Source: Nocardiopsis potens DSM 45234 | GTDB taxonomy: Bacteria; Actinomycetota; Actinomycetes; Streptosporangiales; Streptosporangiaceae | DNA: 64,000 nt | Reading direction: 5' to 3' | Assembly: GCF_000341105.1 (NCBI RefSeq) | Contig: NZ_ANBB01000024.1 | Location: 1 to 64,000, forward strand | In this document: piece after piece, positions 3,622-33,025 of the stretch | Position numbering within the stretch: the stretch's first letter is position 1 | Layout of the letters: each line of letters starts with the position of its first letter | The notes under the pieces: generated by a model | What the model was told of the DNA's origin: nothing | Database searches by the model: none | Seen by the model: only the letters and a program-made list of their open reading frames with translations | Translations under genes and position numbers: made by a program

Positions 3622-3685
3622 CGATGATCTTGACGTTGCGGGGGTATCAGAGCGCTCTGCTGCCCCCGCAACGTCAAGATCATCG
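3622..3685. repeat. Intergenic palindrome family, copy 1
   Basis: 64-bp, nearly perfect inverted repeat with ends CGATGATC and GATCATCG, a stem containing TTGACGTTGCGGGGG and centre AGAGCGCTCT. It lies between convergent 3' ends (ThDP enzyme and thioesterase). Five related palindromes occur in the window. As RNA it would form a long hairpin on either strand without a U-tract. Confidence 0.85.
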
Positions 3686-3707
3686 CCCAAGGGCGCGGCC
3701 GGAGCGC

Positions 3708-4115
3708 TCAGCCGGCCGCGGAGGCGATGAAGCGCTCCCGGTCGACCACGACCCGCTCCACGGTCCCGTCGGCGACCACCCGGCCGCCGCCGGGGCCGCC
3801 CTCCTGCACCGCTTCGACGGCGAAGACCAGCCGGCGGCCGTCGGCCTCGCGCAGCTCGGCGCGGACCCGGACGCGCGCGCCCACCGGGCTGGCCGCGAGG
3901 TGGCGCAGGCCGACCGAGGTGCCCACCGTGGTCCTGCCCGGCTCCAGGCGGCCGGCCAGCGCCGCCACCGTCGCCTCCTCGGCCAGCGCGAGCACCCGCG
4001 GCGTGCCGAGCACCGGCACGTCGCCGCTGCCCAGCGCCTGCGCGGTGTCGGCGGGGCCCACTTCGAGCCGGGCCTCCCCGGTGAGGCCGGGACGCGGTTC
4101 CTCGATATCGCTCAT
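3708..4115 (-). CDS. FlK-like hotdog-fold thioesterase
   Basis: A 135-residue single-domain hotdog protein. The pattern VPVLGTPRVLALAEEATVAA, then GRTTVGTSVGLRHLAASPVG, then VRVRAELREADGRRLVFAVEA matches the fluoroacetyl-CoA thioesterase (FlK)-like family, with conserved Thr, His and Glu-type positions (LAEEA, RHLAA). Family members hydrolyse short acyl-CoA thioesters; most actinobacterial homologues have no known substrate and fluoroacetyl-CoA is not implied. Starts at an ATG preceded by GGTTTCCGGACC, without a clear ribosome site. It is flanked by palindromes on both sides (3622-3685 and 4173-4236), so it is probably a monocistronic unit. Confidence 0.75.
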   Translation of the reverse strand: MSDIEEPRPGLTGEARLEVGPADTAQALGSGDVPVLGTPRVLALAEEATVAALAGRLEPGRTTVGTSVGLRHLAASPVGARVRVRAELREADGRRLVFAVEAVQEGGPGGGRVVADGTVERVVVDRERFIASAAG

Positions 4116-4172
4116 GGTCCGGAAACCTACCCGGGGGCTGTTCGGCGGCGGCGGGCAGGCCCCTCCCGTTCC

Positions 4173-4236
4173 CGATGATCGTGACGTTGCGGCCCCGTCG
4201 GCGCGCGTCGACGGGGCCGCAACGTCACGATCATCG
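4173..4236. repeat. Intergenic palindrome family, copy 2
   Basis: 64-bp near-perfect inverted repeat with CGATGATC / GATCATCG ends and stem GTGACGTTGCGGCCCCGTCG. Relative to copy 1, the TTGACG arm is GTGACG here and the opposite arm changes from CGTCAA to CGTCAC, which keeps the base pairs. The centre is GCGCGC rather than GAGCGCTC. It lies after the 3' end of the HD-domain gene and before the thioesterase start. Confidence 0.85.
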
Positions 4237-4247
4237 GCCGGGGCGGG

Positions 4248-5540
4248 CTACCAGCGCGGCCGGGCCCGGTGCAGGGCGCGCGCCGCGGCCTCGACCACCT
4301 CGGGGTCGTACTCGCCGCCGGAGTCCATCCGCAGCCGCTCCAGCACCGCCTCGCCGCGGTCCGGGTCGACCGACTCGCCGACCAGGTCGTCGAAGGCGTT
4401 GGCCACCTTGATGATCCTGCTGCCCAGCGGCGGCGGCCCGGCGGCGCCGTCGCCCTCGCACCCCTCGCACTGCCGGCGGACCAGCTCGGCCACCGGGTCG
4501 AGCACCCCGGTCTCCCGGATGATCGCCGAGCCCAGCTCCGCGATGCGGCGCTGCTCGCGCGGGGCGGCCAGCACGGTGGCGCCGCTGGCGATCGGGTCGC
4601 GCAGGGACAGCTGGCCGATGTCGTGCATCAGCGCCGCGTACTCCAGCTCGCGCAGCTCCGACTCGCGCATGCCCAGCTCGCAGCCGATCGCGGTGGCCAG
4701 TTCGGAGACCCGGCGGGAGTGGCCGGCCTCCACGTAGCCGCCGACCTCGGTGACCCGGGACAGCGCGCGCACGGTCTGCAGGTAGGTCAGCCGGATGTCG
4801 GCGAACCGGCGGAACGCCACCTGGGTGACGAGCAGCGGCGCGATGAACACCAGCAGGCCGACCAGGCCGGTGGCGGTGCAGGCCAGCGAGATCAGGATGC
4901 CGGTGGCGCCGATCGCCATGCCGATGCCGAACTGGGCGCGGAACTCGTCGCGCAGCGCCACCGAGATGCGGGTGCCCACCCGCTCGGCGCGGATCAGCGC
5001 GGCCAGGGCGGCGTCCACGCACCAGGCGGCCAGGACCAGCGCGATCATCACCGCCAGGGTCAGCCACCAGTCGCGCGGCGCCGGGGAGAGCAGGTCGGCG
5101 AAGGGGCGGAAGGCGGCGGCCAGGGCCACCGCCGTCAGCAGGCGCCGGGAGAGGTCGCTCCAGCGCGGGCCGCGCCCCACCGCGATGTGCGGCAGCTCGC
5201 CCAGGGCCAGCCCGAGCGCGACCACCGCCACCACCTGCTCGGCGGAGTGGTGCACCGGCCGGCCGCCGATGTCGGCGAGGAGCGCGTAGCCGATCGCGCC
5301 GGCCGAGGCGATGGGCGCGGTCTCCCGGCGGCCCGGCAGGGTGATCCGGACCAGCTCGCCGACCGCGATGAGCACGCCGAAGGCGAGCGCGACCTGGGTG
5401 TCGGCGAACCCCGCGGCCAGCGTCCAGACCAGTGCGCCCAGCCCGCAGACCACCGCGGCGGCGATCACCCACATCCGGACCGGGTCGATGCGGGTCGGCC
5501 CTCCGCGGCCGCGCAGCGGGCTCCTCGCCCCCTGGGCCAT
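4248..5540 (-). CDS. Membrane HD-domain protein lacking the GYP signature
   Basis: A 430-residue protein: about eight hydrophobic segments in residues 10-240 (MWVIAAAVVCGLGALVWTLA onward), then an HD hydrolase domain with GHSRRVSELATAIGCEL and ALMHDIGQLSLRD. The HD pair is present, but where HD-GYP phosphodiesterases have HHE and GYP this protein has RRQCEGCEGDGAA, so cyclic-di-GMP hydrolysis by the canonical mechanism is doubtful. It starts at an ATG that shares one base with the TGA of the upstream HD-GYP gene, which implies translational coupling and a joint function. The open frame continues upstream to 6491, but that part is the other gene read out of frame. Confidence 0.8.
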   Translation of the reverse strand: MAQGARSPLRGRGGPTRIDPVRMWVIAAAVVCGLGALVWTLAAGFADTQVALAFGVLIAVGELVRITLPGRRETAPIASAGAIGYALLADIGGRPVHHSAEQVVAVVALGLALGELPHIAVGRGPRWSDLSRRLLTAVALAAAFRPFADLLSPAPRDWWLTLAVMIALVLAAWCVDAALAALIRAERVGTRISVALRDEFRAQFGIGMAIGATGILISLACTATGLVGLLVFIAPLLVTQVAFRRFADIRLTYLQTVRALSRVTEVGGYVEAGHSRRVSELATAIGCELGMRESELRELEYAALMHDIGQLSLRDPIASGATVLAAPREQRRIAELGSAIIRETGVLDPVAELVRRQCEGCEGDGAAGPPPLGSRIIKVANAFDDLVGESVDPDRGEAVLERLRMDSGGEYDPEVVEAAARALHRARPRW

Positions 5541-6904
5541 CACCGGTCGCCCTCCCCGGCGACGCGCAGCGGGACGCTCGGGTCGTCGTGGTCCTGCTGG
5601 GCGACGTCGGCGCCGTCGTCCGGCGGCTCGATGTCGACCGGCGGGTCCCAGCCGTCCCGCTCGACCGCCCGGACCAGCGCCTCCACCATCCGCGGGTCGA
5701 ACTGCTCGCCGGCGCAGCGGCGCAGCTCGGCGACGGCCTCCTCGACCGAGCGGGCCTTGCGGTAGGAGCGGGTGGAGGTGATGCAGTCGAAGACGTCGGC
5801 GACCGAGACGATCCGGGCGCACTCGGGGATGTCCTCCCCGGCCAGGCCCATCGGGTAGCCGCGGCCGTTCATCTTCTCGTGGTGGTGCATGATTCCGGCC
5901 AGCGCCTCGTCGAGGAAGCCGATCTCGCGGACGATCTCGTAGCCGCGCATCGGGTGCAGCTGGATCGCGGCGAACTCCTCCTCGGTGAGCCCGCCCGACT
6001 TCTGCAGCACCTTGGTGGGGACGCCCAGCTTGCCGATGTCGTGCAGCATTCCGGCATAGCGGACGTTGCGCACCCGCTCGGCGCTGAGGCCGAGCTCCTG
6101 GGCGATCATCCCGGACGCCTTGGAGACCCGCATGCAGTGGCCGCGGGTGTAGTAGTCCTTGGTCTCCACCGCCTGGGCCAGGGTGGCCAGGGTGGCGTCG
6201 TGCGCGTGCTGCTCGGCGACGTACTGGTAGAACGCCCAGCGCGCGATGAACAGCGGCAGCAGCACCAGGAGCACCGCGAACAGCCCGACCAGGTCCCAGA
6301 TGGCGGCGATGAGCAGGCCGAGCATGGCGTAGCCGAGGGAGGCCAGCTCCAGGCCGACCACCGGGCGCCAGCGCATCCGGCCGGGCCGGCGCAGCTGCAG
6401 CACGCCCAGGCAGCGCAGCAGGCCGGCGATGAGCGCGCCGTTGACCGCGGTGTGCACCAGGATCGCCGCCGTGTAGGGCAGCACGATCCACGGGAAGTCA
6501 TCCCGGTCCGGGACCCCCATCCGCCCGCCCAGCAGCAGGTAGGCGTGGCCGGCCGCGTAGCCGGCCAGGGCGAACTGGGCGCCGTTGAAGAACCGCTTGA
6601 CCAGGTTCTGCCGGCGCAGCACCACCAGGACCGAGCAGAACCCGACCACGGCGGCGCCGACCGGACCGGTGAGCACGACGGCGGCCAGGGCCGCCGAGGA
6701 GCTCGGCGAGATGCCGGTCCGGTCGCCCTCGCCGCCGCCGTTGTCGACCATCGTGCTGATCGACTCGGCCACCAGGAACAGGACCGCGAGGAGGACCAGG
6801 GTGACCGGTTCGATCCCGGAGTAGGGTCCGGCGGCCAGCACCGCGAGGGCGCTCAGGACGACGAGGCCGACGTACAACCGCGCCGCTACCGGCAGCGAAC
6901 GCAA
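5540..6904 (-). CDS. Membrane HD-GYP domain phosphodiesterase
   Basis: A 454-residue protein with six to eight transmembrane segments (residues about 8-225) and a C-terminal HD-GYP domain: HDIGKLGVP (His288-Asp289), HHHEKMNGRGYP (His340-His342, GYP at 349-351) and DVFDCITSTRSYR. HD-GYP proteins hydrolyse cyclic di-GMP or related cyclic dinucleotides at a di- or trimetal centre; the residues are intact here. The TTG at 6902-6904 is chosen because AGGAGG stands ideally upstream. The stop overlaps the start of the next HD gene by one base. A 28-codon membrane peptide lies 58 bp upstream on the same strand, so the three probably form one operon. Confidence 0.85.
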   Translation of the reverse strand: MRSLPVAARLYVGLVVLSALAVLAAGPYSGIEPVTLVLLAVLFLVAESISTMVDNGGGEGDRTGISPSSSAALAAVVLTGPVGAAVVGFCSVLVVLRRQNLVKRFFNGAQFALAGYAAGHAYLLLGGRMGVPDRDDFPWIVLPYTAAILVHTAVNGALIAGLLRCLGVLQLRRPGRMRWRPVVGLELASLGYAMLGLLIAAIWDLVGLFAVLLVLLPLFIARWAFYQYVAEQHAHDATLATLAQAVETKDYYTRGHCMRVSKASGMIAQELGLSAERVRNVRYAGMLHDIGKLGVPTKVLQKSGGLTEEEFAAIQLHPMRGYEIVREIGFLDEALAGIMHHHEKMNGRGYPMGLAGEDIPECARIVSVADVFDCITSTRSYRKARSVEEAVAELRRCAGEQFDPRMVEALVRAVERDGWDPPVDIEPPDDGADVAQQDHDDPSVPLRVAGEGDR

Positions 6905-6962
6905 TTCTCCGTACCTCCTGCCCCATTGCCGACCGAACCGTCATGATTTCATCGTTTCCGTT

Positions 6963-7049
6963 CTACCACCAGGACCAGCCTCCCGCTGCGTTGACCAGCA
7001 AGAGAGCGGCCACCATCAGCGTGTGCAGCAGTGCGATGATCCCCGTCAT
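6963..7049 (-). CDS. 28-residue hydrophobic small protein upstream of HD-GYP gene
   Basis: Not recognised. An ATG preceded by a GGAGGCGGAGG ribosome site opens a 28-codon frame, MTGIIALLHTLMVAALLLVN followed by a short tail ending WSWW. It is one predicted transmembrane helix with a Trp-rich end. It lies 58 bp upstream of the HD-GYP start on the same strand, which suggests cotranscription and possibly a membrane partner of that protein. The strong ribosome site and hydrophobicity support it; its short length is the main doubt. Confidence 0.5.
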   Translation of the reverse strand: MTGIIALLHTLMVAALLLVNAAGGWSWW

Positions 7050-7640
7050 GTCGCCTCCGCCTCCCTCGGTTCCGGCCGCCGCCCCCTGCGACCCGGCACG
7101 GATCCCCCCTCGGGGGCGGCAAGCGAATTACCCCAAACGGTCGATATGGCGGCCAGTTTAACGGCCTGTTCGAGGGCCCCGATTTCCGCGGACCGAACCG
7201 TGAGCCAACCGTGAGAAACGGTGTTCATCCCCGTTCCGGAATGCGAAACTACGAATCCGTTTCGAATTCCATTCAACTACTCGGAGTGATTATGGGCGCC
7301 GCCCCCGGCCTTCGCCGACCACCTGTCCGCGCGGAGCATTCGGCAGGTCACGGCGGAGATGAGGCGTCTACCGGCGACGGAGAGTCACGGCCCCGGCGGC
7401 CGCGCCGGCCAATGGGCCCCTTGCCCGCCTTCCGGGAGGCCGGATAAAAATTGATTCGACCATCGGGCGTGTCGACCGGCCACCGTTCCACCCATCCCCC
7501 ATTTCACCGCCATTCGCGAATAACGACCGCTTGACACCGTTACATGCCGAATGCCGCACATCACGAAAATTCACGGGGGATGAGGTGAATCGCAGGAGAA
7601 CGCACCGGTCGTCCCGGAAGGTCCCCGGGGTGCGGGCACG
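7050..7640. other. Gene-free stretch upstream of the HD operon
   Basis: About 590 bp with lower G+C than the neighbours. No frame has a convincing start, ribosome site and codon bias. It contains an inverted repeat CGAAAC-N9-GTTTCG at 7244-7264, a possible operator. The promoter of the minus-strand HD operon must lie here, but I cannot place it. Confidence 0.5.
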
Positions 7641-7642
7641 GA

Positions 7643-7672
7643 AAAAGCGGCGCCCCGCAGCTGCGGAACACC
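7643..7672 (-). terminator. Intrinsic terminator of sigR-rsrA
   Basis: On the minus strand a 13-bp stem (GCGGTGTTCCGCA paired with TGCGGGGCGCCGC, some G-U pairs) is followed by CTTTTTCC. It begins about 36 bp after the rsrA stop. A true U-tract is unusual in this window. Confidence 0.7.
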
Positions 7673-7707
7673 GCTTCCGGGCGGCCCCGGCCGGGCCGGG
7701 CTCGCGG

Positions 7708-7988
7708 TCACTCCACCGCGCCCTCCCGCTCGACCAGGTCGGTCCGGGCCGCCTCCAGCCGGAACAGCACCTTGCTGCGCAGGTCGTCCGGGACCGGGTC
7801 GCAGCCGCAGCACTTGGCCACCAGCTTCTTGACGACCTCCTCCAACCCGTACTCCTCCAGGCAGGGGCGGCACTCGTCGAGGTGGCGGCGGACCTCCTCG
7901 CAGCCGGCCTCGGCCAGCTCGCCGTCGATGTAGGTGTAGAGGTTCGCGAGAACCTCGCTGCACGGTGTCTCGTGCGTTCCTCCGCAGC

Positions 7989-7992
<4 letters not shown>
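7708..7992 (-). CDS. rsrA: Zinc-binding redox-sensing anti-sigma factor RsrA
   Basis: A 94-residue ZAS-type anti-sigma factor. The ligand set C11, H37, C41, C44 (H-L-D-E-C-R-P-C) has the same numbering as the zinc and disulfide residues known for Streptomyces RsrA. Under thiol oxidation a C11-C44 type disulfide forms, zinc is lost and SigR is released. A further CCGC cluster lies near residue 62. The ATG at 7990-7992 overlaps the sigR stop as ATGA, so the two are translationally coupled in the usual order sigR-rsrA. An intrinsic terminator follows at 7643-7672. Confidence 0.93.
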
Positions 7993-8657
<665 letters not shown>

Positions 8658-8930
8658 GCCCGCCTGCCTCCTTGTACTGGTGTGCCGTGGGGCAACCGTC
8701 GCCTCACGATACGACGCCCAAGGAGCGGACCGCACGTCCGGACCCGCAGGTCGCGCGGTGGAGGGCCGGTCGAGCACCGGATCCTCGGTCACAGTCGGCA
8801 TCGACCTCGCTGACCTCCTCTTCGACTTCCCGTTCCGATGCGTCCCCGGCGGGCCGGGCGCCCTGCCGGGACGATGAAGGTGCCAACAACGGCGCTCCCC
8901 CGCTGATTCCGGCGGCCGGACCGGCGCCGA

Positions 8931-8955
8931 AACCCGAGAACGCGACCGGAATTCC
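8931..8955 (-). promoter_or_regulatory. Candidate SigR-dependent promoter for sigR
   Basis: On the minus strand GGAAT (8951-8955) and GTT (8931-8933) are 17 bp apart, close to the SigR/SigH pattern GGAAT-N18-GTT. Transcripts from here would include the in-frame ATG at 8801 for a longer isoform. The one-base-short spacing lowers confidence. Confidence 0.4.
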
Positions 8956-9034
8956 TCGCACCGCCTGCCCCCACCGGGTGATGCGTGCAAGAGTGCGGGT
9001 AGAACCGTCAGCAAAGACGTGGGAGAGGAGTGTC

Positions 9035-9895
9035 GTGCGCCCGTCCTCCAGTTCCGCGGCCCGTGAGCAGGCGTCCCCCCGAGGCGATGCCGCCGCGGAG
9101 CCGCCACCGCCCCGGTCCCCCGCGGCGCACTTCGCCACCACCGATTCGCTCACCGCCTACTGGCGGTTCTACTGGGCCGTGGCCGGGACCCAGCTCGCCC
9201 GCTGGCTCCCGGAGGAGCCGGGCGTGCTGCTCGACATGTCCGCCCCGGACTTCCGCGGCGCGCCGCGCGCGCTGGCCGCCGGGCACGACGTGGTCACCCT
9301 GCTGCCCTCCGCCGAGACCGCGCCCCGCCGGACGCTCTCCCTGGTCAACGGGAGCGCCCAGGTACCGCGCCGGCGGCGCTCCCCCGGGCGGCTCCGCCCG
9401 GTCGTGGGCGACCCGGCCAACCTGGACGGCTTCGCCTCCGGGGCGTTCGACGGCGTCATCGCGGACAACAGGGTGCTCTCCCGGCAGCTGGCCACCGAGG
9501 CCTCGCTGGCCGAGATCGCGCGGGTGCTCCGGCCCGGCGGCCGCACCCTGATCTGCGTCGACTCGGTGGTGCTCGGCATGGCCCTCCTCGCCGAGCAGGA
9601 CTGCTGGCCGGAGCTGAGCTTCGCGCCCAGCGCCGACGTGCTGCTGGTGCCCTGGCCGGACGGCTCCATCACCCGGTGCTTCACCGCCGAGCAGCTCACC
9701 GAGCTGCTGGCCGGGGCCGGCCTGGAGGTGGAGTGGATCCGGCCGCGCACCGTACTGTCCGCCTCCACCGTGGAGCACATGGTCGAGTCCGACCCCCGGG
9801 CGCTCAACCGCCTGGTCGAGATGGAGCTGCGCGCCGAGGAGTCCGACGACTACGTGGGCGTGCACCTGCTGGCCAGCGCACGCAAGTCGGATTAG
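9035..9895 (+). CDS. SAM-dependent class I methyltransferase-like protein
   Basis: A 286-residue protein divergent from sigR. After a Ser/Pro/Ala-rich N-terminus, [20 protein letters not shown] leads into a Rossmann-like core with [20 protein letters not shown] (degenerate SAM-binding loop) and the typical late motif [20 protein letters not shown]. The reaction is not deducible: the classical E/DxGxGxG motif is absent, so SAM binding itself is not certain. The GTG at 9035 has GAGAGGAG just upstream; the frame is open further 5' without a better start. A palindrome (copy 3) follows the stop. In related actinomycetes a similar gene tends to sit beside sigR (my recollection). Confidence 0.7.
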
Positions 9896-9909
9896 GCCGC
9901 CGCCGACCG

Positions 9910-9968
9910 CGATGACCGCCGCGGCCCCGTCGGAGCGCTCCGGCGGGGCCGCGGCGCCGAGACCACGG
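9910..9968. repeat. Intergenic palindrome family, copy 3
   Basis: Inverted repeat with stem CCGCGGCCCC / GGGGCCGCGG around GTCGGAGCGCTCCGGC. The left end CGATGACC is conserved; the right end (GAGACCAC) has decayed, so this is the least perfect copy. It sits between convergent 3' ends (methyltransferase and thiC). Confidence 0.75.
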
Positions 9969-10099
9969 CGGAAGCGGGTGGACCGGGCGCCGCTCCCCGC
10001 TCGGCAGCGGCGCCCGAAGGGGGCCGGGGCCCGCCCGTCCTCCGCCGGGGCCTTCCGGCCCCGGCGCCGTCCGGCCGTCCTGCGGGCCCCGGGTGCGGC

Positions 10100-11876
<1,777 letters not shown>

Positions 11877-12049
11877 TATCGATTTGTCGAACCGCGCACC
11901 GCCGTCGCGGTGCGCGCCGCGCCGTCGCGCGGCGGATCATATGACCGGGGCCACCATACACAGAGCGCTACCGCCGCTCCACCCCCGCCCCTCCCCGCCC
12001 GGCGCCGGCCCCGGGGCGAGGGGGCGGGCCGCGGCCGGAAGCGCAGGGG

Positions 12050-22343: not shown

Positions 22344-22907
22344 GTGCGCGCAGACGCCGTGCGCAACCGGGAGGCCGTGCTGCGCGCCGCCGGCCGGCTC
22401 TTCGACGCCGCCGACGACCCGGAGCGGGTGTCGATGGACGACGTCGCCGCCGCGGCCGGCGTCGGCAAGGGCACCCTGTTCCGGCGGTTCGGCGACCGCG
22501 CCGGGCTGATCCGGGCGCTCTACGAGGAGCGGGCCGAGCGGCTGTACGCCTCCCTGGAGCCCGACCCCGGCCGCCCCGCCGCCGACGCCGTCGGCGACCT
22601 GATGAGCGCGCTGCTCCGGTTCAAGATCGAGAACCGGGCGCTGGCCCGCGCCTTCGAGAACGCGGGCGGCGGCCCGTACACCGCCTCCGGCTACGACCGC
22701 CTGCACTCCCGGCTCACCGGGCTGATGACCGAGGCGCGCGGCCCGGACTCCGCCGACTTCCTCGCCCACGCCCTGCTCGCCGGGGTCCGCAGCGACCTCG
22801 TCGAGCACCTCGGCGACTGGCCGGAGGAGCGCCTCCGGGCCGGGATGGCCGCCCTGGTGCGGTCGGTGCTGTCCGGCGGCGGCTCCCCCGGCCGGCCAGA
22901 GCGGTGA
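22344..22907 (+). CDS. TetR-family regulator controlling divergent NmrA-like operon
   Basis: A 187-residue TetR protein: helix-turn-helix RVSMDDVAAAAGVGKGTLFRRFGDRAGLI (described here as residues about 33-61), then an all-helical ligand domain. It starts at GTG with an AAGGAGG site. Two identical-type palindromes lie just upstream, so autoregulation and control of the divergent reductase are likely; the ligand is unknown. Its TGA stop lies inside the left arm of palindrome copy 4. Confidence 0.88.
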   Translation: MRADAVRNREAVLRAAGRLFDAADDPERVSMDDVAAAAGVGKGTLFRRFGDRAGLIRALYEERAERLYASLEPDPGRPAADAVGDLMSALLRFKIENRALARAFENAGGGPYTASGYDRLHSRLTGLMTEARGPDSADFLAHALLAGVRSDLVEHLGDWPEERLRAGMAALVRSVLSGGGSPGRPER

Positions 22908-22964
22908 TCCCGGTGCCGCGGCCCCCTCAGAGCGCTCCGGCGGGGCCGCGGCACCGGGATCACC
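22903..22964. repeat. Intergenic palindrome family, copy 4
   Basis: 62-bp near-perfect inverted repeat: GGTGATCCCGGTGCCGCGG / CCGCGGCACCGGGATCACC around CAGAGCGCTCCGG. It joins two convergent TetR genes; the TGA stops of both (22905-22907 and 22960-22962) lie within its arms. The stem sequence differs from copies 1-3, but pairing is kept. Confidence 0.85.
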
Positions 22965-23562
22965 GGGGAGGGGCCTCCCGGACCGGGGCCTCGGCGATGC
23001 CGGCGACCGCGGCGACGATGCGGTCCGCGGCGCGCTCCGGGTCGGTGGGCAGCAGCACGTAGGAGAGGCTGAGCCTGACCGCGACCTCGGTCATCGCCTC
23101 GCCCCGGCGGCCCAGGCCGGGGTGGTGGCGGCGCAGGTAGGCGTCGATCCGCTGCTCCAGCGCCACGTGCAGCGGCTCGGCCCTGGTGGTGAGCACCGGG
23201 AGGAGTTCGTCGTCACCGGTGATGATGGCGCGCAGCAGCGGGTCCTCGGCGGTGGTGGCCAGGGTCCAGCGGGCGGCCGCGGCCACCGTGCCGGCCGGCG
23301 TCCCCCGGTGGCCGGCCAGGATCCGCTCGACCCCGTCCAGGAACCGGTCCGCCTCGCGCAGCACCACGGCCTGGAGCAGCCCCTCCTTGGTGCCGAACTC
23401 GTTGTACAGGGTCTGCCGGGACACCGCGGCGGTCTGCGCGATGTCGGCCATCCGCATGCGCGACCAGCCCCCGGCCACGACCGCGCCGTAGGCGGCGTCC
23501 AGCAGCCGCTCGCGGACGCCGCCGGTGCGCGGGGGGCCGGGGTGTTCGGTTCGGGCCGTCAT
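22960..23562 (-). CDS. TetR-family regulator
   Basis: A 200-residue TetR protein: MADIAQTAAVSRQTLYNEFG gives the helix-turn-helix (residues about 38-57), followed by a helical C-terminal domain with VAVRLSLSYVLLPTDPERAA. SRQTLYNEFGTKEGLL is common in regulators of fatty acid or aldehyde genes, but no target is adjacent: it is divergent from hisN, separated by a strong palindrome at 23645-23684. The ligand is unknown. Confidence 0.85.
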   Translation of the reverse strand: MTARTEHPGPPRTGGVRERLLDAAYGAVVAGGWSRMRMADIAQTAAVSRQTLYNEFGTKEGLLQAVVLREADRFLDGVERILAGHRGTPAGTVAAAARWTLATTAEDPLLRAIITGDDELLPVLTTRAEPLHVALEQRIDAYLRRHHPGLGRRGEAMTEVAVRLSLSYVLLPTDPERAADRIVAAVAGIAEAPVREAPPR

Positions 23563-23644
23563 AGGGCCATCGTGTCAAAGATCCGGGCGGCCCCGGGCCG
23601 GACTCCGCGGAGGGCGGGGCGGATGAGACGGGTGGGGCGCACGG

Positions 23645-23684
23645 GGCACCCCCTGCCCGCCCGATCGGCCGGGCAGGGGGTGCC
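23645..23684. other. Perfect hairpin between divergent TetR and hisN
   Basis: 15-bp perfect stem GGCACCCCCTGCCCG / CGGGCAGGGGGTGCC with a 10-base loop. It is in a divergent promoter region, about 40 bp before hisN, so it is not an ordinary terminator. It could be an operator, an insulating terminator or a stray repeat. Confidence 0.6.
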
Positions 23685-23725
23685 GCCCTGTCTGAGCGCG
23701 CCCCGGAGCGGTACCGTTACACGCC

Positions 23726-24532: not shown

Positions 24533-24552
24533 CCCTCCGAACCGCCCGCGCC

Positions 24553-24600
24553 CGCCCCGGCGCCGCGCCCCGGACCTCCCGGCGGCCCGGTGCCGGGGCG
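24553..24600 (+). terminator. Hairpin downstream of hisN
   Basis: Stem CGCCCCGGCGCCG with CGGTGCCGGGGCG (one G-U pair), loop 22 bases, about 20 bp after the hisN stop. A probable terminator without a U-tract. The rest of 24601-24944 (about 340 bp) holds no supportable gene; a TTGACG at about 24794 could be a -35 element for the export operon. Confidence 0.5.
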
Positions 24601-24944
24601 GAGCCGTGTCCGCCCCGCGCCGGACGCGCCCCGCCGGTGTGACACCGCTCTCCCCGGGCCGCGGAGGCCCCGCCCGCCCGCGCCGCGCCCCGGTCCGGCC
24701 GCCCCGCTCCGAACAGGGGCCGCGGCGCCCCGCCCGGCCGCGGAGCGGCCCGGAACCCCCGCCGCAGAGGGGTTTTCGGCCCCCTGCTCACTTTGACGAC
24801 ACACGTCCCTTACGCGACGCTGATGCGCACTGGGGCACAGTGGCATCCCGGACCACTCCGGTCACCCGGGGCGCCCCCGCCCCTCCCATCCGCCCCCCGG
24901 GTGCGCCGCCCGCACCCCGTACACGCCGGGGAAGAGGCCGACGC

Positions 24945-26180: not shown

Positions 26181-26194
26181 GAGCGGAAGAACCC

Positions 26195-27258
26195 TTGAAG
26201 AAGTGGATCATCACGGCGGCCGTCCTGGTCGTCCTGGCCGCCGCCGGCGGCACCGGCTGGTTCCTGCTGCGCGGCGGTGGGGGCGACGCGCCCCCCGACG
26301 ACATCGCCGTGGGGGCCGAGGAGGCCGCCCCCGTCCCGGTGGAGTACGGCTCGATCACCGACGAGGTCGTCCTGGACGCGCAGGTCGAGGAGGACCCGGC
26401 GAAGAAGGTGGTGTCCAAGCGCGGCGGCACCGTCACCCGGGTGTGGGTGGGCGACGGCCAGGAGGTCCAGGAGGGCGCGCCGATCGTCTCGGTGCGCTCC
26501 GAGGACCCCGGCGCCGCCCCGGAGGCGGGCGGCGCCGGGGACGGCGGCGACGGCGGTGAGGGGGCCGGGGCCGATCGGCCCGCGGCGACCGAGGTCACCG
26601 TCACCGCCCCGGTCTCCGGCAAGGTCCGCGGGCTGGACGGGCTCGCCGCGGGCGACCCGGTGGAGCAGGGCGCATCGGTCGCCTCGATCAGCCTGGAGCG
26701 GTTCCGCGCGGTCGCCCCGATCCCCGCCAACGACCTGTACCGGTTCTACGACGACCCCGAGGAGATCACCCTCAAGATCGACAAGGGCCCGCCCGCCCAG
26801 GCCTGCAGGTTCCTCTCCATCGGCGAGTCCGAGGAGTCCGGCGACGGGGGCGGCTCCGCCCCCGAGGAGGACATGGGCATGCCCGGCGGCGGAGAAGGAG
26901 GCGGCGGCACCGGGGCCACCTCGCGGATCTCCTGCCGGGTCCCCGAGGACCTGCAGGTCTTCCCCGGCGTCACCGGGAAGATGTCGATCGTCACCGGAAG
27001 CGCCGACCGGGCGCTGCTCGTCCCGGTGACCGCGGTGCGCGGCGGGTTCGAGGAGGGCGAGGTCATCGTCGTCGGCGACGGCGGCGGGCAGGAGACCCGC
27101 CGGGTGGAGCTGGGCATCACCGACGGGGACCGGATCCAGGTCGTCGAGGGGCTCGACGAGGGCGAGCAGGTCCTGGACCCGATCCCGCTGGAGGAGGGCT
27201 TCGACGCGCCCGGTTCCGGCGGCGAGGAGGAGTCCTCCGAAGAAGGGGTGATGTTCTA

Positions 27259-27259
<1 letters not shown>
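26195..27259 (+). CDS. MacA/HlyD-like membrane-fusion adaptor
   Basis: A 354-residue protein with an N-terminal membrane anchor (KKWIITAAVLVVLAAAGGTG), a split biotinyl-lipoyl hairpin (GGTVTRVWVGDGQEVQEGAP and later VTVTAPVSGKVRGLDGLAAGD), a Gly/Asp/Glu-rich linker between the halves and a beta-barrel-type C-terminus (VLDPIPLEEG). This is the Gram-positive version of periplasmic adaptor proteins that work with MacB-type permeases. TTG start at 26195 after AGGAG. The stop shares a base with the GTG of the ATPase (TAGTG). Substrates of such systems include peptides and antibiotics; none can be named here. Confidence 0.82.
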
Positions 27260-27999
<740 letters not shown>

Positions 28000-28089
28000 G
28001 CGGCCCCGCCCGGCCGGGCCCGCCGCTGCTCCGGGCCCGCCGGGGCGGCGGGCGGGAGAGGCCGCTGCGCGGCGCCCGGGAAAGGCGAA

Positions 28090-28119
28090 GGGCCCGGCAC
28101 TCTTCCGAGTACCGGGCCC
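28090..28119 (-). terminator. Terminator of initiator tRNA copy 1
   Basis: On the minus strand GGGCCCGGTACTC / GAGTGCCGGGCCC with a GGAA loop, followed by a TTCGCCTTT stretch, six bases after the CCA end. Confidence 0.75.
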
Positions 28120-28125
28120 CTGCTC

Positions 28126-28202
28126 TGGTAGCGGGGACAGGATTTGAACCTGCGACCTCTGGGTTATGAGCCCAGCGAGCTACCGAACTGCTCCACCCCG
28201 CG
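28126..28202 (-). tRNA. Initiator tRNA-fMet (CAU), copy 1
   Basis: 77-base tRNA with encoded CCA and anticodon CAT in GGGCTCATAACCC. Initiator features: unpaired C1 opposite U72 and three G-C pairs at the base of the anticodon stem. D-loop TTCGGTAGCTC, T-arm GCAGGTTCAAATCCTGT. Promoter upstream: TTGGCA (28241-28246) - 18 bp - TAGGGT (28217-28222). Confidence 0.95.
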
Positions 28203-28216
28203 TCGTTGTGTTCACA

Positions 28217-28246
28217 ACCCTAGCGCCCCGCGACCACCAGTGCCAA
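28217..28246 (-). promoter_or_regulatory. Promoter of initiator tRNA copy 1
   Basis: TTGGCA - N18 - TAGGGT on the minus strand, TAGGGT being 14 bases before the tRNA 5' end. The identical arrangement occurs at 28923-28952 for copy 3. Confidence 0.7.
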
Positions 28247-28516
28247 CTCGGCGCCGCACCGCCCCGGAGCGTCCCTCGGGGCCGGCCCCGCCCCCTTCCT
28301 TGAGGGCGGCGGAGGCGGCCCCGCGCACCGCCCGCCGTCCGCGAGGGCGCGGCTCCGCCCCACCGCCGGGAGCAGGGCGCACACGGCCCGCAGGGCGCAC
28401 GGGAGGCGGGAGCCGGCACCGGAGGAGCGCGGCGGGGCGGGGCCGTGCCCGGAGGCCTCGACCGAGCGGAGGGCACCGGGGCCGCCGAGAGGGCGGACCC
28501 GCCGGGAAAAGCGCGG

Positions 28517-28546
28517 AGGCCGGGCACTCTTCCGAGTACCCGGCCT
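28517..28546 (-). terminator. Terminator of initiator tRNA copy 2
   Basis: AGGCCGGGTACTC / GAGTGCCCGGCCT with a GGAA loop on the minus strand. Same architecture as copies 1 and 3, but with compensatory differences in the stem. Confidence 0.7.
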
Positions 28547-28552
28547 CTGCTC

Positions 28553-28629
28553 TGGTAGCGGGGACAGGATTTGAACCTGCGACCTCTGGGTTATGAGCCC
28601 AGCGAGCTACCGAACTGCTCCACCCCGCG
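28553..28629 (-). tRNA. Initiator tRNA-fMet (CAU), copy 2
   Basis: Mature sequence identical to the other two copies as far as I can read, 77 bases with CCA. The flanks differ: it has its own promoter TTGGTG (28666-28671) - 17 bp - TAAGCT (28643-28648). Confidence 0.95.
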
Positions 28630-28642
28630 TCGATGTGCCTTC

Positions 28643-28671
28643 AGCTTAGCGGTTCCCGCTCCCAGCACCAA
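28643..28671 (-). promoter_or_regulatory. Promoter of initiator tRNA copy 2
   Basis: TTGGTG - N17 - TAAGCT on the minus strand, the -10 element 13 bases before the tRNA 5' end. Confidence 0.65.
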
Positions 28672-28707
28672 ATCGTTTCCCGCAGGGGCACCGCCGCCCC
28701 CCAGGGA

Positions 28708-28773
28708 CGATGATCTCGACGGCGCGGGGGTGCCGCGGAGCGCTCCGGCAGGGCCGCAACGCCGAGAGCATCG
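28708..28773. repeat. Intergenic palindrome family, copy 5
   Basis: 66-bp imperfect inverted repeat with CGATGATC and GAGCATCG ends, stem CTCGACGGCGCGG against GGGCCGCAACGCCGAG (with mismatches) and centre GGAGCGCTCC. It lies between tRNA copies 2 and 3, downstream of copy 3's terminator. Confidence 0.8.
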
Positions 28774-28795
28774 CGAGAGGGGCGGGAAAGGCGAA

Positions 28796-28825
28796 GGGCC
28801 CGGCACTCTTCCGAGTACCGGGCCC
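28796..28825 (-). terminator. Terminator of initiator tRNA copy 3
   Basis: GGGCCCGGTACTC / GAGTGCCGGGCCC hairpin, identical to the terminator of copy 1. Confidence 0.75.
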
Positions 28826-28831
28826 CTGCTC

Positions 28832-28908
28832 TGGTAGCGGGGACAGGATTTGAACCTGCGACCTCTGGGTTATGAGCCCAGCGAGCTACCGAACTGCTCC
28901 ACCCCGCG
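28832..28908 (-). tRNA. Initiator tRNA-fMet (CAU), copy 3
   Basis: Same 77-base sequence as copies 1 and 2, with encoded CCA. Promoter, gene and terminator match copy 1 exactly. Confidence 0.95.
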
Positions 28909-29073
28909 TCGTTGTGTTCACAACCCTAGCGCCCCGCGACCACCAGTGCCAACTCGGCGCCGCACCGCCCCGCGGGCCCTGGAACGCGCCCCGGAACGCG
29001 CCGCGGGGCGGGGGTCGCACACCCCCGCCCCGCAGTGGACTCCGCCGGCCGGACCGGACCGGGAAGGGCCGCC

Positions 29074-32000
29074 CTACTCGCCCTGCTCCTCGCGCGCCTT
29101 CTCCGCGCGCTCCAGAGCCTTGCCCAGCTCGTCGACGGCCTTGCCGTAGGCCTCCCAGTCGCCGTTCTTCATGGCCTCCTGGCTGTCCTCGTAGGCCTTG
29201 GCCGCGTCGTCCAGCGCCTGGGTCAGGGCATCGCCGTCGCCGCCACCGCCGTCGCCGCCGTCCTGGCCGTCCTCCTTCGGCTGCTCCTCCTCGAGCGGGC
29301 CCTCGCCGCCCTCGAACAGGTTGTTGAGCGCCTCCTGGAGGTTGCCGCCGATGGCGACCTCCTCACCGAAGCCGACCATGACCTGCTGGAGCAGCGGGTA
29401 GGAGGCGTCTCCTCCGCCGCCGGCCTGCACGTACAGCGGTTCGACGTAGAGCAGCCCGTCGCCGAACGGCAGGGTGAGCAGATTGCCGTAGGTGACCTCC
29501 GCCGAGCTCTGCTCCAGCGGGAGCAGCACCTCTCGGACGTTCGCGTCGGACTGGAAGGCGTTCTGCACCTGGCCGGGGCCGAGGATCACCGTGCTGCGCG
29601 GCAGCTCCAGCATCCGGATCTTGCCGTACTCCTCGGACTCCACGTCGCTGACCACCGACATGAACGCCGCCAGGTTGTCCCTGCCCCTCGGCACGAACGT
29701 GGAGGTGAGGGCGAAGCTCGCCTCCTCGTCCCCGGGGTAGCGCAGGGTCTGCCGGTACGGCGGCTCCGGGCTGTCCCCCTCCTTCGTCGGGTCGGAGGGG
29801 ATGTCCCAGAAGTCCTGGCCGCCGTAGAAGGCGTCCGGGTCGGTGATGTGGTAGCGCTTGAGGATCTCCCGCTGCACCTTGAACAGGTCGTCCGGGTAGC
29901 GCAGGTGCCGCTGGAGCTCGTCGCTGATGTCCTCCTTGCTGGTGACCACCCCGGGGAACGCCTCGGACCAGGTCTTGAGGACCGGGTCCTTCTCGTCCCA
30001 GCCGTAGACGGTGACCGTGCCGTCGTAGGCGTCGACGGTGGCCTTCACCGAGTTCCGGATGTAGTTGACCTGGTTGCCGGGGATCGTCGTGGCCGAGTCG
30101 GTGCCCTGGCTGAAGGTGTCCTCGGTGGCCCGGGCGAAGTCGATCGGCGTCGAGTAGGGGTAGTGCGAGCTCGTGGTGTAGGCGTCCACGATCCACTGCA
30201 CCCGGCCGTCGACCACCGCCGGGTAGGGCTTGCCGTCCACGGTGAGGAACGGCGCGACCTTCTCCACCCGGTCGGACGGGTCCCGGTCGTAGAGGATCTT
30301 CGACTCGCTGGTGATCGCGGTGTTGAGCAGGATGTCCGGCTCGCTGTACTTCAGCGCGTACAGGATGCGGTCGAAGAACGAGCTGAGCTGGACGCCGCCG
30401 TCGCCGTCGTAGTGGTTGGTGGCCTGGCTGCCGCCGCCTTCGCCACCGCCTTCGCCGCCGCCTTCGGTGGCCTCGGGGCTCTCCTCGGTCGCCTCGGGGC
30501 TCTCCTCCGGGGAGGGCGAGGCGTCGGCCTCGGCCTCGGCGCCGTCCGCCGGCGGCCGGGCCTCGTCGGCGCCGCCCTGGCCCTCGACGTCCTCGCTGGT
30601 GGTGATCTCCTCGTTGTCGCCGCCGCCGGAGTCGAGCGGGTAGTCGTACTCCGGCTCGGCGTTGACGATGACGTAGTCGGCGCCCTGCTGGCCGTAGTAG
30701 ATGCGCGGCTCGTACTCGCCGTTCACCTCGGAGAGCTCACCGGTGGGCGGGATGTTGTACTGGGTGAAGACCGGCCGCCCCTCGGCGTCGACCTGGTTGC
30801 CGGCCGCCGCCACGATGCCGAACCCGTGGGTGTAGACGGTGTGCCGGGTCAGCCAGTTGTCCTGGCCCTCCGGCGGCCCGTCCAGCTCGCGGGCGGCGAT
30901 GATGGTGTCGACGGTGTTGCCCTCGGCGTCCTCGTACCGGTCCACGTCGAGCACTTCGGGGAACTGGTAGAAGCCGCGGACCTGCTGCATCTGCTGGAAG
31001 GTCTGCGAGACGACGGAGGGGTCGACCAGCCGGACGCTGGGGATGGTGGAGGCCTCGTCCGCCAGCTGCTCGGGGGTGAGCTCGGTCTTGGCGTCGTAGG
31101 TCTCGCTCTCCGCCTCGGCGATGCCGTAGGCGCCGCGGGTCGCCTCGATGTTCCGCGCGATGTAGGGCTTCTCCTCGCGCTGCTCGTTCGGGCTGACCGT
31201 GAACTGCTGGACCAGCTGCGGGTAGACGCCGCCGATCAGCACCGCCGAGAGCACCAGCAGGCCCAGGCTGACCATCGGCACCATGGCGTTCTTGAAGTAG
31301 ATGTTGGCGAAGAACAGCAGCGCGCAGACGACCGCGATGATCGCCAGGATGACCTTGGCGGTGAGCACCGCGTTCACGTCGGTGTAGGAGGCGCCGAAGG
31401 TGTAGCCCCGGGTGGAGAAGACCAGGCCGTACTGGTCGAGCCAGTAGGCGGCGGCCTTCAGCAGCACGAACAGGCCGAGCAGCACCGACAGGTGCACCCG
31501 CGCCGCCGGAGTGGCGCGCTGCCCCTGGGACTGCAGCCGGACCCCGCCGAACAGGTAGTGCACCACGACCGCGGCGATGAAGGCGAGCACCACGGCGGCG
31601 AACAGGTAGCCGAGCACCACCCGCAGGAACGGGTAGGTGAACGCGAAGAACGAGATGTCGATCCCGAACTGCGGGTCGGTCTGGCCGAACGGGTTCCGGT
31701 TGGCGTACTGCAGGTAGGTGCCCCACTCGGCGCTGGCCGAGGCGCCGGTGAGCAGACCCAGGCCGCCGGCGATCAGCCAGAAGAAGAGCTTCCGGTGCGG
31801 CTCGATCGCCATCCGGTAGCGGTCCAGGCCCTGCTGCTCCAGGCTCATCGGCCGGGTCAGCGGGCGGGACCGGTAGGCGAAGTAGATGCTGGCACCGACG
31901 ATGAGCATCATCAGCAGCGCCGCGCCCACGAAGAGCATGGCGCGGGTGCGCAGCTCGGTCAGGAAGACCGATGTGTAGCCGACCGACTCGTACCACTTGT

Positions 32001-32130
32001 AGTCGGTCACGAAATTCGCGGCGACCAGAAGGCCCGCGACGATGACGACGACGACCGCTGCGACGGGCGCGAGCAGCCGGGATCGTCGAGGCATGCGCGC
32101 GGTTGGAGCGCCGGGCGATCGGAAGCTCAC
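29074..32130 (-). CDS. UPF0182-family large membrane protein
   Basis: A 1018-residue protein with about seven transmembrane helices in the first 320 residues (LLAPVAAVVVVIVAGLLVAA; AMLFVGAALLMMLIVGASIY; LFFWLIAGGLGLLTGA; LGYLFAAVVLAFIAAVVVHY and others), followed by a large extracytoplasmic part. An acidic Gly/Ser/Glu/Pro low-complexity stretch lies at about 500-560, and a second near 960 precedes a Lys/Glu-rich terminal helix. It matches the UPF0182 family found next to ylbL in many actinobacteria; the function is unknown. GTG start after GAGGGGGAGG. The antisense strand is open over the same length, a composition artefact. Confidence 0.92.
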   Translation of the reverse strand: MSFRSPGAPTARMPRRSRLLAPVAAVVVVIVAGLLVAANFVTDYKWYESVGYTSVFLTELRTRAMLFVGAALLMMLIVGASIYFAYRSRPLTRPMSLEQQGLDRYRMAIEPHRKLFFWLIAGGLGLLTGASASAEWGTYLQYANRNPFGQTDPQFGIDISFFAFTYPFLRVVLGYLFAAVVLAFIAAVVVHYLFGGVRLQSQGQRATPAARVHLSVLLGLFVLLKAAAYWLDQYGLVFSTRGYTFGASYTDVNAVLTAKVILAIIAVVCALLFFANIYFKNAMVPMVSLGLLVLSAVLIGGVYPQLVQQFTVSPNEQREEKPYIARNIEATRGAYGIAEAESETYDAKTELTPEQLADEASTIPSVRLVDPSVVSQTFQQMQQVRGFYQFPEVLDVDRYEDAEGNTVDTIIAARELDGPPEGQDNWLTRHTVYTHGFGIVAAAGNQVDAEGRPVFTQYNIPPTGELSEVNGEYEPRIYYGQQGADYVIVNAEPEYDYPLDSGGGDNEEITTSEDVEGQGGADEARPPADGAEAEADASPSPEESPEATEESPEATEGGGEGGGEGGGSQATNHYDGDGGVQLSSFFDRILYALKYSEPDILLNTAITSESKILYDRDPSDRVEKVAPFLTVDGKPYPAVVDGRVQWIVDAYTTSSHYPYSTPIDFARATEDTFSQGTDSATTIPGNQVNYIRNSVKATVDAYDGTVTVYGWDEKDPVLKTWSEAFPGVVTSKEDISDELQRHLRYPDDLFKVQREILKRYHITDPDAFYGGQDFWDIPSDPTKEGDSPEPPYRQTLRYPGDEEASFALTSTFVPRGRDNLAAFMSVVSDVESEEYGKIRMLELPRSTVILGPGQVQNAFQSDANVREVLLPLEQSSAEVTYGNLLTLPFGDGLLYVEPLYVQAGGGGDASYPLLQQVMVGFGEEVAIGGNLQEALNNLFEGGEGPLEEEQPKEDGQDGGDGGGGDGDALTQALDDAAKAYEDSQEAMKNGDWEAYGKAVDELGKALERAEKAREEQGE

Positions 32131-32392
32131 GCCTCCCCCTCGTCATGACTGTCGTTGAACGCGAGGAGCGTGGCCGCCCCTCTGTATCGGCAACTTATTG
32201 GCTCTGCCACGGGTTCCCGAAACCCCGCGCCGGTGCGGTGACAACATCACATCGGAGCGGCATCGGCGGGGGCTCGGCGGAGCCCGCACGTCGACCCTAG
32301 CGCCCGCGGCGGGCGCGTCCGCAGGGGATCGGGGAGGCCGGCCCGCGGCCTCAGAGGACCGCCGGGGGCCGGGTTTCGGGCACCATGGAGGG

Positions 32393-32914
32393 GTGACCTA
32401 TCTGATCCGCGACGCCGTCATGGACCTGGAGCGCCACGCCTCGGAGCAGGGCTGGGACCAGCCGCCCCGGGTGTACGCCCTCGTCCCCACCGCCGAGCTG
32501 GCCCGCCAGGAGCCGGCGCTGGCCTCGATGCTCGGGCTGGACCCGTCCGCCGACCCCGCCGAGCTGACCCCGGTCGAGCAGGAGGCGCTGCCCGACGGCG
32601 TCCCGCTGGAGGAGGCCCTGGGCAGCATCGCCTGGCCGGAGGCGGTGGCCGGGTGCGCCCTGGTGCTGGAGCGGCTGGTGCTGAAGGGGTCGGACGCGAC
32701 CCTGGACCCGCCGCGCGGCGCCGACACCGGGGAGTGGGCCAAGGCCCAGGACGGCAGCGAGGAGATCCGGATGGTCGCCGGCGTGCTGCGGGACGGCGGC
32801 CGGCACGCGGCGCTGCGGATGCGCTCGCACGACAGCGACGACCAGGTGCTCAACGGGGAGGACCTGGTGCCCGCGCTCACCTCGGCGCTGGCGCTGACCT
32901 TCGAGGAGGAGTGA
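32393..32914 (+). CDS. PPA1309-family conserved protein
   Basis: A 173-residue protein of the actinobacterial PPA1309 family, recognised by GWDQPPRVYALVPTAELARQ, the IAWPEAVAGCALVLERL core and a C-terminal DLVPALTSALALTFEE. The function is unknown. It is conserved between UPF0182 and ylbL in many actinomycetes, as here. The start is uncertain: GTG at 32393 overlaps a GGAGG too closely, so leaderless translation or the ATG at 32420 are alternatives. Confidence 0.8.
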   Translation: MTYLIRDAVMDLERHASEQGWDQPPRVYALVPTAELARQEPALASMLGLDPSADPAELTPVEQEALPDGVPLEEALGSIAWPEAVAGCALVLERLVLKGSDATLDPPRGADTGEWAKAQDGSEEIRMVAGVLRDGGRHAALRMRSHDSDDQVLNGEDLVPALTSALALTFEEE

Positions 32915-32961
32915 CCGCTCCCCCGCGCCCTTCCGGCCGCCGGCGGGAAGGCCCGCCGAGG

Positions 32962-33025
32962 CGATGGCCGTGGCGCCGCGGCCCTGCCAGAGCGCTCTGA
33001 CGAGGCCGCGGCGCCACGGTCATCG
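32962..33025. repeat. Intergenic palindrome family, copy 6
   Basis: 64-bp inverted repeat: CGATGGCCGTGGCGCCGCGG / CCGCGGCGCCACGGTCATCG with centre CAGAGCGCTCTGA. It lies between convergent PPA1309 and ylbL genes. Confidence 0.85.

Follow-up and report, generated by a model that had tools for sequence, protein, structure and literature searches.

GATC-tagged 64-bp palindromes dispersed at gene 3' ends of Nocardiopsis potens, a probable family of REP/MITE-like elements

The first 33 kb of a 64,000-nt stretch of the Nocardiopsis potens DSM 45234 genome (contig NZ_ANBB01000024.1, positions 1 to 64,000; hereafter the window) carry six long intergenic palindromes that follow gene 3' ends, and an initial annotation proposed for them three functions: bidirectional terminators, a mobile palindrome of the REP/MITE type, or sites for nucleoid organization or recombination. 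Which of these accounts for the palindromes, and what maintains the symmetry of their arms? All six were recovered where they had been described, far beyond chance expectation: four of them are the top four 60-nt palindromes of the window, with 26-29 of 30 pairs, a level reached by none of 200 simulated 64-kb sequences of the same dinucleotide composition (maximum 24 pairs), and the two starting at 9906 and 28707 are weakly paired (21/30 and 20/30, respectively). The central GAGCGCTC is indeed present in five of the six copies, and our own gene calls likewise placed four of them (3621, 9906, 22901 and 32961) between convergent genes. The features were listed without strand and scored with a covariance model (CM R1). 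The copy at 3621-3686 (82.7 bits) lies between a TPP-enzyme gene (+) and a convergent FlK-like thioesterase gene (-), and the one at 4172-4237 (90.7 bits) lies amid tandem minus-strand genes, 10 nt past the 3' end of the minus-strand HD-domain gene 4248-5543. A decayed copy at 9906-9969 (40.4 bits, E 7.9e-8) separates an unassigned gene (9035-9895, +) from a convergent ThiC-family gene (10100-11728, -). The copy at 22901-22966 (74.6 bits) is flanked by convergent TetR-type genes, both of which overlap its ends with their final 7 nt, stop codons included. Another decayed copy, at 28707-28774 (44.7 bits, E 6.4e-9), separates the second from the third of three tRNA-Met genes (all -), 57 nt past a tRNA-Met 3' end, and the copy at 32961-33026 (76.3 bits) lies between convergent genes, its orthologous site in a close relative (G004) being devoid of a palindrome. 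The remaining 31 kb, described initially as free of copies, contain two weaker ones: a seventh at 47926-47990 (48.4 bits, E 7.3e-10), overlooked initially and located between divergent genes, and an eighth, the weakest, at 54294-54358 (31.5 bits, E 1.5e-5). Rfam, at gathering score over the whole window, returned three tRNAs only and matched none of the palindromes.

Past the end of the window, the retrieved part of this contig contained four further copies of at least 36 bits, and a wider search revealed a dispersed family, with 83 copies of at least 36 bits in the 2.06 Mb examined of the 6.9-Mb genome; by extrapolation, the whole genome would hold about 200-300. The element is 64 bp long and consists of two 32-bp arms placed back to back with no loop. 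The consensus arm reads CGATGATCTYGACGYTGCGG...YCAGAGC, followed by its complement, and CGATGATC is present at both ends of the family palindromes. The edge is sharp: in 81 copies, some of which come from G004 and all of which were gathered with a covariance model that rewards pairing, arm pairing is 0.86 at the 32nd base pair and 0.35 at the 33rd (0.42 expected), and sequence conservation ends at the same boundary. A half-site pattern allowing 2 mismatches gave counts of 321/330 in this genome, 280/292 in G004 and 91-132 in four other congeners; as the reversed control understates the background of this pattern and other large genomes also reach 150-300, it is a poor measure on its own, and the covariance model and the double-ended tag, the latter checked against its TGAAC control, were used instead. 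The density of copies was uneven, with 80 in 1.66 Mb and 3 in 0.40 Mb (contigs C8, C25 and C13).

The arms vary in concert. In an alignment of 25 of 28 copies (those at 9906 and 28707 and one from locus L016 were excluded), both members vary in 17 of 32 pairs, and none of 500 shuffles attained the covariation score, which upholds the paired substitutions described initially; the number of further pair types was reached by 23 of 500 shuffles of the same 25 copies. The covariation result is inflated because these copies were selected for being palindromic. In the set of 81 copies used for the edge, symmetric changes numbered 462 against 150.5 expected from independent arms, a threefold excess, and 53 of the 67 symmetric variants are common to at least two copies, in the manner of subfamily variants, with 14 private to a single copy. 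The view that structure rather than sequence is conserved calls for correction: paired change is real, but the ends are strongly conserved, most of the variants resemble subfamilies and the pairing gives no hint of acting at the RNA level. A structured RNA would tolerate wobble pairs on the transcribed strand; mismatches there comprised 43 G-U and 63 A-C in 44 tandem copies, and 46 G-U and 48 A-C in 42 convergent copies (G004 copies included; 5 of 94 copies, which have no clear symmetric axis, were dropped). RNA-level covariation was thus unsupported by this test. As the transcribed strand shows no G-U excess, the symmetry is kept at the DNA level, and is unlikely to be preserved through pairing in RNA.

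The distribution of copies relative to genes was strongly skewed. Among the 83 copies, 38 lie in convergent regions (16.8 expected), 42 in tandem regions (43.2), 3 in divergent regions (22.9) and none in coding sequence (67.7). These counts omit matches below 36 bits, which made up 15 of 95 in one set (13 intergenic and 2 coding). In tandem regions of at least 110 bp, the copy occupies the half adjoining the upstream stop in 32 of 40 cases (p 1.8e-4), and 34 of 44 tandem copies lie within 35 nt of the stop codon. The palindromes are therefore REP-like in the wide sense, being high-copy, extragenic and biased towards 3' ends, and copies may persist where they are least harmful.

Positions of the copies differ between close relatives. 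For seven of the eight window copies, both flanks can be aligned with G004 at 87-96% identity, yet G004 lacks all seven; conversely, the three model matches of G004 in the aligned stretch are missing from this genome. Occupancy at orthologous sites is thus polymorphic, as for MITEs, although the empty sites are not clean since intergenic DNA at copy sites is mostly unalignable with G004, which leaves general intergenic turnover as an alternative. In the 61 of the 81 copies used for flank analyses, a perfect 3-nt direct repeat was found in 10 (5.3 expected), and the signal for direct repeats of 3-4 nt was weak (z 4.2).

The REP-associated tyrosine transposase that had been suggested as a partner was not found: PF01797 (Y1_Tnp) is absent at E <= 0.001 from this genome and from the three contigs of G004; of 24 genomes tested, 17 bear the tag, and 16 of these have no Y1_Tnp match. 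Matches occurred in G413 and in four congeners with background half-site counts, two of these four matches being weak. A search for an autonomous parent, with arms 60-4000 bp apart, covered 2.06 Mb here and 0.22 Mb in G004 and found no transposase. The arms do recur at the ends of elements of 1.1-1.7 kb inside which no gene was called; 41 cores of such elements were counted in 2.06 Mb (leaving aside a short match of 194 bp), or about 140 in the genome by extrapolation. These mobile-looking elements seem to be placed in the middle of a palindrome. A coding origin of their core was rejected, as no codon periodicity was detected (the three frame positions diverge by 0.122, 0.116 and 0.123). Folding of the aligned core is more stable than that of its column-shuffled versions (-91 versus -63 kcal/mol on average); covariation support for the core as an RNA was not found, and Rfam gave a single match at four loci containing large elements, a raiA RNA located outside the elements.

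Could the palindromes have been selected as bidirectional intrinsic terminators, whose very stable hairpin stops RNA polymerase from either side without a U-tract? GC-rich actinobacteria use U-tract-less bidirectional terminators made of strong hairpins just past stop codons, and the palindromes resemble them in forming strong hairpins (median predicted energy -57 kcal/mol) directly after stop codons, with an excess between convergent genes. Where a copy lies within 60 nt of a tandem 3' end, a second hairpin is also rarer (2/32 versus 130/575, p 0.027), but convergent 3' ends exhibit no such difference (8/36 versus 71/290); ends whose copy is farther off than 60 nt, which were excluded from this comparison, carry another hairpin in 6 of 14 cases when convergent and in 3 of 8 when tandem. 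There is no T tract: the 12 nt past a copy contain 0.82 T where 1.50 are expected (maximum 4), so that the T run that follows the hairpin of a canonical intrinsic terminator was not observed, and the absence of any G-U excess in transcribed strands also speaks against selection of this kind. Near-perfect symmetry over 64 bp, a conserved tag at the ends and a sharp edge are not needed for termination; in G004, the orthologous 3' ends do without the palindrome, and the known terminators are many unrelated hairpins whereas here one repeated sequence with sharp ends turns over between relatives. We regard selection as terminators as an unlikely origin of the family.

Rather improbable, too, is the proposal that template switching during replication (quasi-palindrome correction) keeps the palindromes perfect, with little mobility or function: the threefold excess of symmetric changes, the private variants and mismatches devoid of significant strand bias would fit, but the predominance of variants common to several copies is what subfamilies predict, and correction alone accounts neither for hundreds of copies of the same sequence nor for their sharp edge. 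Binding sites that selection had spread for a dimeric protein acting in the nucleoid, in segregation or in recombination would display dyad symmetry, a strongly conserved outer GATC segment and a dispersed distribution as seen here; the strong 3'-end bias, the turnover of positions between close relatives, a length of 64 bp that is long for a single dimer site, and interiors that vary between the genomes shown make this very improbable. The family is extremely unlikely to consist of ordinary REP elements mobilised by a RAYT (Y1_Tnp) transposase. REPs are also palindromic, extragenic and located mainly between convergent or unidirectional genes, according to a survey of the GTAG/CGTC superfamilies, which defines them as palindromes of 20-40 bp tagged at one end with GTAG or CGTC (PMC3733652). 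The palindromes share with REPs and REPINs a short size, a high copy number, an extragenic location mainly 3' of genes and in convergent or tandem regions, and a conserved tag near the end. However, they are 64 bp long, loopless and nearly perfectly symmetric with 32-bp arms, both ends carry the GATC-containing CGATGATC rather than one end GTAG or CGTC, and no Y1_Tnp (RAYT) gene accompanies them in this genome. The GTAG/CGTC survey cites the frequency of GT pairs in support of transcription (PMC3733652), an argument to which the absence of a G-U excess here stands in contrast.

Among the three functions proposed initially, the REP/MITE-like one is the best supported, owing to the many copies, the sharp edge and the presence or absence of copies between close relatives; termination is a possible role with weak support and the expected transposase was not found. 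The palindromes are probably non-autonomous, dispersed REP/MITE-like elements of 64 bp, tolerated at gene 3' ends and possibly terminating transcription there. MITEs, or miniature inverted-repeat transposable elements, are small and non-autonomous with inverted repeats at both ends. Like them, the palindromes are small, non-autonomous, intergenic, dispersed and polymorphic in occupancy; unlike them, they lack an interior altogether and show no clear target-site duplication, and no parent insertion sequence was found in the 2.06 of 6.9 Mb searched. Spreading would rely on an enzyme recognising the GATC-tagged ends or their hairpin, which in this genome would not be a recognisable Y1_Tnp/RAYT, and some surviving copies may then serve as U-tract-less bidirectional terminators.

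The tag extends beyond this genome. Of 393 genomes sampled from the class, 47 by hand count contain at least 10 TGATCNTG...CANGATCA palindromes (10-163) and 25 contain at least 20, versus at most 4 of the control TGAACNTG...CANGTTCA, in which one tag letter is changed, in each of the same 393. Numbers differ even inside a single genus (g44), with 86 in one genome (G073) and 1 and 2 in two others (G050 and G091, respectively). Tag-bearing palindromes recur in 12 families of the class and their interiors differ among the genomes shown; the same end tag thus recurs with other interiors in other families. In a pattern-free check of 80 named loci, 7 of 28 palindromes with arms of at least 22 bp carry GATC near the outer end, all seven from Nocardiopsis or close genera. 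The exact double-arm pattern had no match among named genomes, a search whose coverage may not extend to the genome itself and its near relatives. Tag-bearing palindromes of different families may have one common mover. Some insertion sequences target REP palindromes, as one report describes (PMC1525189), and here too a larger mobile-looking element apparently sits in mid-palindrome, with the difference that no gene was found inside the guest, of 1.1-1.7 kb, and that its hosts are GATC-type palindromes. Tentatively, and with less confidence than for the REP/MITE-like nature of the family itself, GATC-tagged palindromes could form a separate class of mobile DNA spanning the actinobacterial class, in which each lineage would retain the TGATCNTG...CANGATCA ends and symmetrically rewrite the interior, a non-RAYT enzyme copying or cutting hairpins would ensure spreading, and the exact centre would act as a landing pad for the gene-less 1.1-1.7 kb fold-back elements.

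A GATC-tagged class of palindromes was not found in the literature searched, which included REP surveys and mostly lay outside subscription journals. REP biology has been linked to RAYT enzymes; if true, the reading proposed here would represent a second way of spreading palindromes, distinct from RAYT, and a gene common to tag-rich genomes is the target to search for. Strong hairpins after many genes may, moreover, shape transcription ends in these actinobacteria.

The six palindromes that the initial annotation placed between 3622 and 33025 of the window are present and were judged not to be due to chance, because in the top four 60-nt palindromes of the window, all among those six, 26-29 of 30 positions are paired, compared to a maximum of 24 in 200 simulated sequences matched for dinucleotide composition. 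A covariance model built from 25 copies of the family (R1) recovered all six and added copies at 47926-47990 and 54294-54358; the following 31 kb, described as free of copies, is therefore not. BLAST with a single copy scored 40 candidates, about 40 places, in the N. potens genome. A covariance-model search of the genome, as the initial annotation had proposed, gave at least 150 candidates, and all of the 150 scored were positive, every place being counted on both strands. Ninety-five distinct places were found at E 0.01 in 1.66 Mb of the genome, 80 of them at 36 bits or more, and the addition of a further 0.40 Mb gave 83 copies at that threshold in 2.06 Mb. Extrapolation to 6.9 Mb yields roughly 280 copies, with a wide error because contigs C8, C25 and C13 (L219-L238) carry only 3 copies in 0.40 Mb, compared to 80 in the remaining 1.66 Mb.

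In 81 centred copies, arm pairing is 0.72-0.99 per position across 32 bp and falls from 0.86 to 0.35 one base beyond the arm, where conservation also ends; the element is thus 64 bp long and loop-free, CGATGATC...GATCATCG. The left flank tends to be C-rich and the right flank G-rich, and direct repeats at the flanks give a weak 3-4 nt signal with few perfect ones. There are 462 symmetric changes from the consensus, compared to 150.5 expected if the arms varied independently, indicating that symmetry is maintained or inherited. Were pairing in RNA the cause, the transcribed strand would be expected to accept G-U but not A-C. The tandem copies (n=44), oriented by the upstream gene, show 43 G-U and 63 A-C (p 0.06, in the direction opposite to RNA pairing), and the convergent copies (n=42) show 46 and 48, respectively. 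These counts speak against RNA pairing as the cause of the symmetry, which therefore appears to act on the DNA. The 53 of 67 symmetric variants common to at least two copies fit subfamilies copied from perfect palindromes, and the 14 private ones leave room for hairpin-templated correction. A second palindrome family carries the same end tag (CGTTGATCTTGGACTTATCGACCGG...) with a loop of about 30 nt and paired changes between copies; it lies at 162303-162408 of C35 and 79902-79989 of C15 in N. potens, and at L212 6595-6684 and L202 19750-19838 in the close relative G004.

Genes were called with a codon-usage caller made for this analysis (82% of DNA coding), and expected positions were derived from the available space. 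None of the 83 copies lies inside a gene. Convergent genes flank 38 of them, compared to 16.8 expected (p 1.6e-7), and divergent genes flank 3, compared to 22.9 expected (p 2e-8); the other 42 are flanked by tandem genes (43.2 expected). Purifying selection against copies in promoter regions would account for part of this bias. Of 40 tandem regions large enough for the two halves to be distinguished, 32 have the copy in the half adjoining the stop of the upstream gene. In 34 of 44 tandem copies the distance to the stop is at most 35 nt, a tight spacing that suggests either target preference or terminator use. The predicted hairpins are extremely stable (median -57 kcal/mol), and no T tract was found after the copies. 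Tandem 3' ends that have a copy within 60 nt carry other hairpins less often (2/32 vs 130/575, p 0.027), and convergent ones show no such decrease (8/36 vs 71/290); use of some copies as terminators would thus be possible. Within the window, three minus-strand tRNA-Met (cat) genes lie within 800 bp (28126-28908), and a decayed palindrome separates the second from the third.

The window aligns with one stretch of G004, in which the family is also present. For seven of the eight window copies both flanks align there (87-96% identity) with no family match at E 0.01, a comparison to be taken with caution since at most sites the surrounding intergenic DNA does not itself align; for the copy at 22901 a single flank aligned. 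The clearest site is 32961, where both neighbouring genes align up to their stop codons and G004 lacks the palindrome. Conversely, the three R1 matches of the G004 stretch, one of which belongs to the looped family, are all at places empty in N. potens. A fluoroacetyl-CoA-thioesterase-like (FlK) gene at 3708-4115 has a palindrome on each side and is found in G004 without them. In the G004 orthologue of 9896-10029, a 50-60 bp unit is repeated in tandem about five times (by eye) downstream of the gene that is followed by a palindrome in N. potens.

Y1_Tnp (RAYT) proteins mobilise REP elements. The initial annotation had proposed to look for a linked transposase of this kind, and none matched at E 0.001 in N. 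potens or G004. A match occurs in 5 of 24 genomes tested, namely the four other congeners (two matches weak) and G413, which bears double-tagged palindromes; none was found in 16 of the 17 such tag-bearing genomes tested. As three tag-poor genomes (G050, G090, G091) also lack one, absence of Y1_Tnp alone does not track the tag. The search for a parent element with the arms of the family yielded intergenic fold-back elements of 1.1-1.7 kb with no gene called inside, in which inverted arrays of ~71-bp repeats surround a conserved 520-bp core that contains two almost invariant blocks. Examples lie at L173 16514-17937 (C35), L166 4948-6570 (C2), L189 8022-9754 (C41) and L125 9732-11041 (C27); L173 also carries a raiA RNA (RF03072, 11676-11939, 145 bits). 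The core occurs at 41 places in 2.06 Mb of N. potens, including the palindrome-poor contigs C8, C25 and C13, and at no fewer than 40 places in G004; none was found in ten other genomes searched.

Partnerless intergenic arms lie at or near the edges of these large elements in 19 of 22 cases (hand count). Of 42 cores, 14 have recognisable ends, 21 in total, and the other 28 have none. The 45 bases directly outside contain GATC at 17 of 21 ends and GATC, GGTC or GACC at 20 of 21, as counts uncorrected for chance. In 3 of 7 both-ended elements, left and right arms have a rare variant in common (CAACG in C41; GATGACC and GCGGGCCC in C35). The central CG is repeated at several junctions. From these shared variants and repeats we read the large elements as having probably inserted at the exact centre of existing palindromes with a 2-bp duplication; the opposite direction, in which the palindromes would be deletion products of large elements, could also apply.

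R1 matches in related genera include near-perfect palindromes with identical ends and other interiors, such as those of Murinocardiopsis flavida (L290) and Actinorugispora (L249). A search for the tag (TGATCNTG, 30-60 bases, CANGATCA) in 393 genomes of the class gave at least 10 matches in 47 genomes, spread over 12 families, and at least 20 in 25 (hand counts), with a maximum of 163; the reversed control never exceeded 1 per genome, and the control TGAACNTG...CANGTTCA never exceeded 4 in the same genomes. In the two genomes with matches listed at length (G073 and G105), the interiors form one family with paired substitutions, by eye. A pattern-free scan of 80 named loci found GATC near the outer end in 7 of 28 palindromes with arms of at least 22 bp, all seven from Nocardiopsis or close genera; a Rothia palindrome, the eighth with GATC, lacks such an end. 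Common descent of the tag-sharing families is a candidate reading. In the four other congeners half-site counts are at background, and weaker R1 matches number 4 (G001), 11 (G002), 57 (G003) and 6 (G005); those of G003 (best E 7.9e-8), found despite its background count, are possibly a diverged palindrome family. One window protein has its closest named matches in N. halophila, N. endophytica, N. chromatogenes and N. suaedae (81-83% identity), which suggests that N. potens belongs to the halophila group of the genus.

No description of GATC-tagged palindromes was found in the accessible portions of the literature searched, including PMC3733652, PMC12306157 and PMC1525189. As a REP/MITE-like palindromic repeat the family is of an ordinary kind; its unusual details are the GATC tag at both ends, the lack of a detected RAYT, the symmetry at the DNA level and the wide recurrence in the class.
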